36,203 nt of DNA. Source: Anaerolineales bacterium (GTDB lineage Bacteria; Chloroflexota; Anaerolineae; Anaerolineales; Villigracilaceae). The notes under the pieces were generated by a model. The model was not told where the DNA came from. It made no database searches and saw only the letters and a list, made by a program, of their open reading frames with translations. Shown here in pieces: positions 2,825 through 18,262 of the stretch. The stretch lies in contig JAFGCG010000117.1 of NCBI GenBank assembly GCA_016932715.1, forward strand, positions 1 through 36,203, read 5' to 3'. The number at the start of each line of letters is the position of its first letter. Position 1 is the first letter of the stretch. Both the position numbers and the translations under genes were made by a program.

Positions 2825-3598
2825 TCATGGTTTGGTGAGGGTATAACCAGCAGGCACCATGAAAGTATTAGCATTAATCGAACTATCTACTTCCAATGAT
2901 GTAAACGCCATCTTCTCGGAAAGCTGTCCATTTTCCTTCTGCTCATATCTCAAAATCATTCCTGTGGCCTGATCGATCCATGCTGTTGTCTCTCCCGTTT
3001 TAGTTTTCAGCAAAACGACCCATGTATCTCTACCCAATACTTGCTCTTGTCCCGTCACCTGGTATGAGAGAGTAGAATTACCTTGAACGAACCATTCAGG
3101 ATAAATATACTCTTTTACAGGGGCAGGAATCAGTAACGAGAATGGATGATTGTATACGACATCTGTGCTGACCTCTGAAAGGTTTTTGGGCATAAGCACA
3201 AATTTCTTTGCAAAATCGGGAATGTTATTTTCAGTGTAACTTTTCTTTGTTTTATCAAGCTCGTAAATTTTCTGCCCATCACTAATCCAAAGGCCTTCGT
3301 TAAAACCCGGTTGATCTTTATTTATGATATTAATGTATGCAGAATAAGGCTGAGAAATCTGGAATTGGTTTATATAAGTTTGTGTACCTCCATTGGGCCC
3401 ATACCAAGTAACTTCAGCCTCGCCCTTGATTGTGCTCCAATGGGTATGGCTATTTAGGATTAAGGTGAGAACATTGTCTATCGAACCCGCAGCTCGGCCA
3501 GGTTGGATCGCCAGTTTCCCTGGTAAGCCAAGGACTGTAGCGACTACGCCAAGTAGAATCCCCGCAATAATTGATACTAGCCAATCTTGTTTCCTCAT
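2825..3598 (-). CDS. Exported LolA/RseB-like beta-sheet protein
   Basis: Product of 257 aa from the ATG at 3598, which has a strong Shine-Dalgarno sequence (GAAGGAGA) just upstream. The N-terminus has a signal anchor or signal peptide (WLVSIIAGILLGVVATVLGL). The rest looks like the LolA/RseB/MucB half-barrel family: LWISDGQKIYELDKTKKSY in the middle, and a C-terminal part with WVVLLKTKTGETTAWIDQATGMILRYE, which is the usual turn-rich end of these folds. In Gram-positive-like and Chloroflexota genomes such proteins often act as extracytoplasmic sensors or carriers, but no sigma factor or anti-sigma factor lies next to it. It is first in a two-gene unit with the golvesin-like protein, behind a good promoter at 3696-3724. 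Fold moderately sure, role unknown. Confidence 0.6.
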   Translation of the reverse strand: MRKQDWLVSIIAGILLGVVATVLGLPGKLAIQPGRAAGSIDNVLTLILNSHTHWSTIKGEAEVTWYGPNGGTQTYINQFQISQPYSAYINIINKDQPGFNEGLWISDGQKIYELDKTKKSYTENNIPDFAKKFVLMPKNLSEVSTDVVYNHPFSLLIPAPVKEYIYPEWFVQGNSTLSYQVTGQEQVLGRDTWVVLLKTKTGETTAWIDQATGMILRYEQKENGQLSEKMAFTSLEVDSSINANTFMVPAGYTLTKP

Positions 3599-17003: not shown

Positions 17004-17130
17004 TTGTTTTGTCCACAGGACAGCTTCGCTTGTAAGCTGAATTCATACTCCAAGTTTACCTAATCATGCGGCACTATGTAAAACACAATTGCCTGGAGCT
17101 TTGTTCCAGACAACCTGTCCCATTAAAACG
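17004..17130. other. Intergenic region downstream of ssrA
   Basis: Contains a small stem (CTGGA...TCCAG, 17092-17108) and AT-rich DNA upstream of the lipoprotein gene. No clear promoter was found. Confidence 0.3.
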
Positions 17131-17164
17131 CTTCGACCAGCATTATAATAAATGCCGGTCGAAG
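17131..17164 (-). terminator. Terminator stem just after ssrA
   Basis: CTTCGACCGGCATT and AATGCTGGTCGAAG pair over about 14 positions with one G.T, loop TATTAT, followed on the minus strand by CGTTTTAAT. It begins 6 nt beyond the tmRNA 3' end. Confidence 0.75.
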
Positions 17165-17188
17165 TTTTGTGGAGATGGCGGGAATTGA

Positions 17189-17851
17189 CACTTGTTTCCG
17201 GGCTTTCGCCCCGGCGCTGACTATCTCTTGAAGTGATCTCTGTCACTCCTCCGGCGTGTTGTAGGGAGATTAGATTATGGTTGACACTGAACTTGCTTAT
17301 GCTGCTGGGCTTTTTGATGGTGAAGGCTCCATTTCATTGGTTCGTCAAAAGACTAACCGTTCGCATTCACCTCAAGTGGCTGTAGCATCCAACGACTGCG
17401 AAGTTCTTGTCTGGTTTCAGAAGCGCTTTGGTGGAAGCATTGTCACCAAACAACCTCGCAAGTCAACTCATTCGGTCTCATATGACTGGCGATTAACCGA
17501 CCGCCGCGCTCTGACCTTTCTGAGGCTCATTCGTCCATATCTTGTCATTGAGCGCAAGATTCGGCGAATTGATTTGCTGCTCAACGATTACATCGCGTGC
17601 ACTCCAAGGAATGGACGGTACACGGAAGAAATGGTTGAGCGCAAGCAGGCGTTAATCGAGACCTTTTTCTCCTTACCCTAGTACTCCATATTACAGAATG
17701 TAACGTAGGAGCCTATAAGTCGATGCAGGGCTTTTCTCTTTCGAGTTCACCCCTCAGGGTCGGCAGCGGCGTGAGCCGGTGAGCTTTCCCTGATTAAGCC
17801 GGATTTGCTCGGCACGTCACCATGCCGAGGGGCTCATTCAGTTGTTAAAGA
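17189..17851 (-). mobile_element. Group I intron in the tmRNA T-loop, 663 nt
   Basis: The 5' exon ends in GCGGGT (17852) and the intron begins TCTTTAACAAC. P1: exon GGGU pairs with intron GCCC (about 17833-17830), a U.G pair falling exactly at the splice site; UC/GA and UU/AA extend the stem. P2: CTCGGCA/TGCCGAG (about 17809-17830). P4: TCAGGG (17793-17788) with CCCTGA (17759-17754). P6/P6a: a GGG/CCC stem capped by CTC-GAAA-GAG. P7: GACTTAT (R region, within 17712-17725) with ATAGTC in AAGAGATAGTC (S region, 17219-17229). P9: CCGGG/CCCGG (17198-17214). The intron ends in G at 17189, as group I introns require. P3 was not resolved. An endonuclease gene fills the P8 region on the opposite strand. 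Confidence 0.9.
17277..17681 (+). CDS. LAGLIDADG homing endonuclease, encoded antisense to the intron
   Basis: Product of 134 aa. It has one LAGLIDADG motif, LAYAAGLFDGEGSISLV (residues 6-22), with E16 at the metal-binding acidic position. One motif and this length mean it should act as a homodimer. Further family features are VASNDCEVLVWFQKRFGGSI, WRLTDRRALTFLRLIRPYLV and a basic, helical C-terminus. Such enzymes cut intron-less alleles and spread their host intron. A good Shine-Dalgarno sequence (gtaggga, 17261-17267) stands about 9 nt before the ATG, so translation from a plus-strand mRNA is likely; no clear promoter was found inside the intron. The gene lies between the two P7 strands (P8 position) but on the strand opposite to ssrA. 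The frame is intact, suggesting recent activity. Confidence 0.9.
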   Translation: MVDTELAYAAGLFDGEGSISLVRQKTNRSHSPQVAVASNDCEVLVWFQKRFGGSIVTKQPRKSTHSVSYDWRLTDRRALTFLRLIRPYLVIERKIRRIDLLLNDYIACTPRNGRYTEEMVERKQALIETFFSLP

Positions 17852-18082
17852 ACCCGCGTCCGAAAGATTCGACCCTCGGAAATCTACGAGCGTAGTCAGT
17901 CGAGGTTTGTCATCCCAGAGGTCTCATCTGACAGGAACTCTCTGGGACCAGCCGCTGGTCTTTCGCGCAGGTAGCGGCGTCATGCGCGGCACTCCGCCAT
18001 TGTCTCGCCCGGTCCGTCACCCGACGGAGAAGGGTGCCGGCGGACGCGTGGCGCCAAGGCGCCACGGCTGTTATGTCAGCGC

Positions 18083-18124
18083 TTATGCAGCGAGGGGCAT
18101 AGCAGCGTAGGAAGTGCGGTTGGC
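18083..18124 (-). other. tmRNA tag-peptide reading frame
   Basis: From the resume codon GCC (18124-18122) the frame reads ANRTSYAAMPLAA and stops at TAA (18085-18083). The Ala-Asn start and the Leu-Ala-Ala end are the usual features of ssrA tags recognised by ClpXP-type proteases. The other frames give no tag with such an end close to a stop. Confidence 0.85.
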
Positions 18125-18262
18125 ACTTGATTGTTTGCGCTGAGTTTACGAGTTCGGCGCCGCTCGGCTCGCATTCCGGGACCAGCCTCTCCCGTCGAAG
18201 CCTGTCATCCCCAGGGATTGTGGACGCTTCTACAGAGAAATTTGTTCCACGAATACATTTTT

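Follow-up and report, generated by a model that had tools for sequence, protein, structure and literature searches.

A group I intron with an antisense LAGLIDADG endonuclease gene in the ssrA T-loop of an Anaerolineales bacterium, and a candidate endonuclease promoter in the ssrA terminator loop

The only ssrA gene found in the genome of an Anaerolineales bacterium of the family Villigracilaceae is interrupted in its T-loop by a 663-nt insert, and this insert is a group I intron. The gene lies in contig JAFGCG010000117.1, of which positions 1 to 36,203 are called the window here. Within the intron, on the strand opposite ssrA, is a gene for a LAGLIDADG homing endonuclease (HEG). We consider it quite probable that the intron is mobile and that it is inherited together with the 3′ exon and terminator of ssrA; that the HEG has its promoter in the loop of that terminator has an even chance or slightly less. 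The initial annotation had described a group I intron with an antisense endonuclease gene in the ssrA T-loop of a Chloroflexota-like genome, and this description is borne out by a compensated core, by matches of the RF00028 model to HEG-less relatives, and by the conservation of the HEG. It had not been seen that the whole lineage has the antisense arrangement, or that there is a link to the terminator. The features are collected in Table 1.

Table 1. Features of the interrupted ssrA gene, its intron, and its 3′ flank, in window coordinates
Feature	Position	Strand	Basis
ssrA 5′ exon, 361 nt, acceptor 5′ strand to first T-loop nucleotide	17852..18212	-	RF00023 match, 5′ end and length
Tag reading frame ANRTSYAAMPLAA, including stop	18083..18124 (starts at 18124)	-	Translation of ssrA
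P1: exon GGGU and intron UC with GAGCCC	17830..17855	-	132/132 cells paired; zero double changes
Group I intron, 663 nt, in ssrA T-loop	17189..17851	-	Comparative structure; U(-1) and omega-G rules
P2 hairpin, GUGA loop	17808..17829	-	Double changes in 8/9 pairs
P3 5′ strand (17803-17798), P4, P5, P5a, P6, P6a	17728..17803	-	P3, 4/6 pairs doubly changed; P6 invariant
P7 5′ strand, partner 17224-17219 in S element AAGAGATAGTC	17715..17721	-	Invariant, hence no covariation of its own
P7.1/P7.1a hairpin and P7.2 5′ strand (17676-17669)	17669..17712	-	Comparative structure
LAGLIDADG homing endonuclease ORF, 134 aa, antisense to ssrA	17277..17681	+	PF00961, dN/dS, predicted fold
HEG Shine-Dalgarno GTAGGGAG, complement of P7.2 3′ strand	17261..17268	+	Structure and HEG alignment
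P7.2 3′ strand (17268-17261), P3′, P8, J8/7, P7′, P9	17198..17268	-	Comparative structure
ssrA 3′ exon, remaining T-arm and acceptor stem, CCA not encoded	17169..17188	-	Comparison with intronless relatives
ssrA intrinsic terminator hairpin, type common to intron carriers	17131..17164	-	Flank comparison
TATAAT in terminator loop, proposed -10 of candidate antisense HEG promoter	17144..17149	+	10/10 carriers vs 0/70 intronless
Second hairpin, after the first; possibly the displaced resident terminator	17087..17115	-	By eye, inference

The ssrA gene runs on the minus strand from its 5′ end at 18212 (GGGGATGAC) to about 17169. The RF00023 model matches positions 17826-18205 of this strand at 112-113 bits and breaks at the T-arm; the 3′ half of the gene is found beyond the 663 nt. 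The interruption follows the first base of the T-loop: the 5′ exon ends in GGACGCGGGT at 17852, and the 3′ exon starts with TCAATTCCCGCCATCTCC at 17188. When 17852 is joined to 17188, the T-arm reads GCGGG-TTCAATT-CCCGC, and the predicted ligated junction is GCGGGUUCAAUUCCCGC. The arm is uninterrupted in all 15 intronless loci of the same genus that were compared, with TTCAATT as the loop in 13 and TTCGATT in two. Thus, the two halves of ssrA first recognized by eye are real, with the RF00023 score behind the 5′ part and the 3′ exon starting at 17188, and removal of the insert restores the T-arm as had been claimed.

In the source genome (4.94 Mb, 94.67% complete), RF00023 gives a single match above its cut-off; the six further matches score below 30 bits and, at 76-90 nt, are the size of tRNAs. 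A second intact copy, which the initial annotation had named as the thing that would make this gene a pseudogene, is therefore not found by RF00023 in this assembly, of which about 5% may be missing. The gene has a tRNA-like domain and a tag frame, and the genome has one SmpB, as a functional tmRNA requires; ribosome rescue would depend on splicing. The ARAGORN program finds no tmRNA in the window ssrA, whether spliced or unspliced, a result that is uninformative since the program also misses the gene in all three intronless relatives tried (L119, L123, L128). ssrA may accordingly be absent from ARAGORN-only annotation of these genomes.

At the 5′ splice site, U(-1) at 17852 faces G 17833 in P1, and the last nucleotide of the intron is G 17189. 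Both the intron and the 3′ exon start with TC, which leaves an uncertainty of up to 2 nt in the register; sequence alone does not resolve it, and the register was set by the rules for U(-1)·G and omega-G. A DNA pattern drawn from the intron core detects 22 loci in one genome collection (L071 and G367 being one and the same place), of which the 21 complete ones were analyzed; L067, incomplete at its sequence end and identical in sequence to L140, was not used. All 21 have the intron at the identical site, GGGT/T...G/T, where slashes mark the junctions. Together with the window and L140, and after removal of duplicates, these loci provide 23 distinct complete introns.

The structure was counted in 22 of the 23 introns, with the ORF removed before alignment; L140 is the one left out, and L066 was placed by hand. 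The 73 pairs of helices P1-P9 are formed in 1484 of 1564 cells, compared with a mean of 1322 and a maximum of 1345 in 500 shuffles, a control that ignores relatedness among the introns. Double changes affect 40 of the 73 pairs (shuffle maximum, 30) and 187 cells (maximum, 77), and pairing falls to 34-48% when partners are slid by 1-3 positions. The weakest helices are P5a (60 of 88 cells paired) and P9 (106 of 129), and the invariant P6 and P7 contribute pairing and no covariation. The pair counts describe a P3/P4/P6/P7/P8 catalytic core. To the helices named initially (P1, P2, P4, P6/P6a, P7, and P9), all of which are present, they add P3, P5, P7.1, P7.2, and P8.

The Rfam group I model, RF00028, has no match in the window or in the source genome, as might be expected from the insert of about 400 nt in the core. 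Of three HEG-less ssrA introns scanned, it matches that of L062 at 54.6 bits (cut-off 50) over all but the last 9 nt and that of L079 at 41.9 bits, below the cut-off; no match is listed for L064 at E 0.05. The covariance search proposed at the outset therefore succeeds for the tmRNA, and for the intron it succeeds on a relative and not in the window itself. The compensated core in 22 introns, taken with the matches of RF00028 to HEG-less relatives, settles the group I identity. The L062 contig has a second group I intron besides that of ssrA, at 3181-3419 on the minus strand (RF00028, 57.6 bits). Such introns are frequent in the class, with RF00028 matching at E ≤ 0.001 in 79 of 396 genomes and up to five times per genome.

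The 134-residue ORF matches PF00961 at 23.2 bits (cut-off 23.1) and PF14528 at 21.6 bits (cut-off 22.5). Residues 9-17, AAGLFDGEG, are a LAGLIDADG motif with its acidic residue, and the fold predicted for the protein (pLDDT 92.9) has I-MsoI as its best match; profiles also match I-MsoI and I-CreI. The motif and the fold are thus those of the LAGLIDADG endonucleases. With I-MsoI and I-CreI, the protein shares the predicted fold and the single motif, at about 20% identity to I-MsoI, and a putative homodimer cutting the palindrome of the T-arm fits the geometry.

A HEG is found in 19 of the 23 distinct introns, always antisense to ssrA; the introns without one are L062, L064, L079, and L140. Two of the 19 frames look frameshifted (L070, L072), and the 17 intact ones align without gaps across 134 residues, counted from one common point, with start codons that vary among the HEGs. 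The intact frames differ by 0.28, 0.22, and 0.61 at the three codon positions, and dN/dS is 0.096 for the window against L009; among the pairs for which dS is finite (81 of 136), the median is 0.136. Such low ratios show purifying selection on the antisense frame. For comparison, 30 further group I loci from the class include five with a motif-bearing ORF near the intron match, and all five are sense. One sense LAGLIDADG gene of the class is within a 23S rRNA locus (L021, G105:C218), probably in an rRNA intron. The one HEG homologue that breaks the antisense pattern is at L019 (G180:C705, about 776-2500), where a group I-like intron lacking a HEG interrupts ssrA at a different T-loop subsite, after nt 6; the HEG there is sense, is 37% identical to that of the window, and lies behind ssrA, flanked, as judged by eye, by two copies of the 3′ end of this gene. 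A phage origin was considered and set aside: viral contigs contain no match to the core pattern, and phage relatives of the HEG are at most 38% identical among the matches listed.

The ORF fills the terminal loop of P7.2; in the HEG-less introns, the loop on this stem is about 13-17 nt long. In antisense orientation, the 3′ strand of P7.2 reads GTAGGGAG or GTAAGGAG in most introns, and the 5′ strand with its neighbor encodes the last HEG residues, SLP, followed by the stop TAG. Since both strands double as HEG signals, an ORF that enters this loop in antisense orientation finds translation signals in the stem.

Much of this arrangement has precedents. A 2025 survey (PMC11915505) reports 883 intron-form tmRNAs with four T-loop subsites, of which position 2 is confined to Anaerolineae, save for one Myxococcota sequence. 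The window junction, after T-loop nt 1 in a member of this class, corresponds to position 2 by counting, and the introns described there are like that of the window in gene, loop, subsite, class, size range, U(-1), and omega-G, and some carry a LAGLIDADG gene. The survey lists 36 HEG-bearing introns, with the P7.1 region as the site of 19 of the first 23 HEGs, and no intron exceeds 700 bp. Group I introns at T-loop position 7 (Williams 2002, as cited in PMC11915505) share the loop and differ in subsite; L019 looks like one of these. The initial annotation is thus correct that tmRNA group I introns were known. As for its suggestion that this copy may be undescribed, the kind, subsite, class, and HEG site are already in print (PMC11915505); on the orientation of the HEG, as on a promoter or terminator linkage, the main text of the survey is silent.

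Antisense HEGs are known in nuclear rDNA group I introns of Didymium (PMC9548176, PMC3073962), and there, too, the HEG lies opposite a structural-RNA gene and needs its own promoter. The Didymium system is eukaryotic, with a His-Cys enzyme (the L2066 case) encoded in P9.2 and a proposed RNA polymerase II promoter, whereas the window HEG is bacterial, of the LAGLIDADG type, and in P7.2. Even for eukaryotic rDNA, the expression of antisense HEGs has been called unsolved (PMC9548176). No antisense HEG in a bacterial group I intron appears in the titles or abstract openings of the open-access papers among the matches listed.

The intron is distributed sporadically. Among 152 genomes of the family, the intron core is found in 10, an intact T-arm in 122, and neither in 20. 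Of the 17 other members of the genus, 16 have an intact T-arm and one, 80% complete, has none; the intron is found only in the source genome. In a tree of 78 ssrA 5′ exons (80 loci were chosen, and L124 and L130 were excluded for want of a 5′ end), the window pairs with the intronless G401 (99/88, from a bootstrap that had not settled), and G510, G499, and G451 pair with the intronless G491, G498, and G377, respectively. Such pairing of carriers with intronless genes requires several gains, or gains and losses. The 10 family carriers are not independent, representing about seven lineages in five genera; their HEG is intact in six, frameshifted in two, and absent in two. Intact, frameshifted, and absent states make up the cycle expected of homing genes. 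Loci L054 and L055, suspected from low RF00023 scores of carrying an intron, proved intronless on inspection; L056 does carry one.

The 3′ flank associates with the intron. On the HEG strand, the loop of the ssrA terminator contains TATAAT in all 10 family carriers and in none of 70 intronless family members (30 + 40 loci, out of the 122 genomes with an intact T-arm). Over the 48 nt behind ssrA, carriers of different genera have an identity of 0.775 (37 pairs), compared with 0.397 for intronless members of different genera (1595 pairs) and 0.561 for intronless members of one genus (683 pairs). Within a genus, carriers and intronless members share 0.622 of these positions (154 pairs), which means that intronless genes can have this type of terminator as well. 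Over the next 50 nt, the cross-genus identity of carriers is only 0.277. The observed carrier identity was never reached in 20,000 draws with labels reassigned within genera, a procedure in which one genus leaves no choice and two leave little. The 48 nt of the window are 71-79% identical to those of the nine other carriers and 21-62% to those of 15 intronless genus members, and its 5′ exon is 77-89% identical to those of 14 intronless genus members. The T-stem was kept out of these comparisons as biased, the carriers having been found via a GCGGG pattern. By eye, the second hairpin behind the window ssrA resembles the terminators of intronless genus members, and the incoming 3′ flank looks as if it had been set ahead of the resident terminator. 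Extra ssrA 3′ ends (around ATTCCCGCCATCTCCA) occur 50-90 nt apart behind the gene in L112, L132, L135, L009, and L140, with three extra ones in L132.

It is tempting to propose that TATAAT is the -10 element of a HEG promoter. A competing account accepts the co-inheritance of intron and terminator, by co-conversion of flanks or from a common source, and regards TATAAT as a passenger; HEG transcription would then start at a different antisense promoter or come from read-through that begins beyond the terminator. We find this account credible, if rather less than an even bet. Consistent with it, TATAAT is retained in carriers whose HEG is absent (L140, L143) or frameshifted (L146, L147), the candidate promoter has no convincing -35 and is absent from the matches of a consensus promoter scan, and the 13 introns outside the family do without TATAAT behind ssrA, which rules it out as a general feature of these introns. 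Furthermore, TATAAC, one base off, is found on the same strand within 100 nt of 15 of the 70 intronless genes, inside the hairpin in four (L157, L167, L168, L183). Against the passenger account, the loop can vary freely and has varied around TATAAT, yet the motif itself is retained in 10 of 10 carriers from five genera at a constant distance from the stem end, and the intronless G512, with nearly the same hairpin as two carriers, has TACAGT in place of TATAAT. The lack of a good -35, the promoter scan, the introns outside the family, the carriers with a dead or absent HEG, and the frequency of TATAAC lower the odds of the promoter reading, and we judge the chance that the HEG is transcribed from the terminator loop to be even or slightly less.

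Two further readings would dispense with homing or with splicing. The segment may have been moved by a tyrosine integrase, as a mini-island at the ssrA 3′ end; such ends are common island sites (PMC11915505), and in L009 and L140 the 3′ flank contains a second ssrA 3′ end at about 87 nt. No second copy is found, however, in the 21 other intron loci with a 3′ flank, and the insert is an apparently spliceable intron placed exactly at a group I junction. Since tandem 3′ ends occur in the intronless L112, L132, and L135 as well, we regard this reading as very improbable. It is also conceivable that the intron splices not at all, or too little, and that the window ssrA is a pseudogene, and the failure of RF00028 on the window intron would agree with this. 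Against it, every core pair is intact in the window, including those of P7 and P3, as are the exons, the tag, and SmpB, and no other ssrA was found in the source genome, of which about 5% may be missing; we consider a pseudogene extremely improbable.

The mobile intron with its antisense HEG would then work as follows. The intron RNA would remove itself, allowing the T-arm, and hence a charged tmRNA, to form. Mobility would come from a single-motif LAGLIDADG endonuclease, acting as a homodimer of the I-MsoI/I-CreI kind and encoded antisense in the terminal loop of P7.2. This enzyme would cleave ssrA genes that lack the intron at their near-palindromic T-arm, after which repair would copy the intron in. 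The HEG would be transcribed against ssrA from within the ssrA terminator loop, and the proposed transcription from there would account for the inheritance of the intron with its 3′ flank: the mobile unit inherited in the family would be the intron, the 3′ exon, and the terminator, not the intron alone. For the promoter proposal in its full form, we would allow a chance a little short of even. In that form, a HEG promoter would be hidden on the opposite strand of the host terminator loop and inherited in this unit, a single hairpin would both end the tmRNA transcript and start that of the HEG, and the antisense message would be able to pair with pre-tmRNA.

The finding describes a bacterial lineage in which every intron-internal HEG found is antisense, with a testable promoter candidate that tracks the intron across five genera. 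It would also widen the picture of homing, in that sequence beyond the intron seems to be passed on along with it. The bacterium, for its part, would rely for its single-copy rescue RNA on a ribozyme that harbors a gene transcribed in the opposite direction.
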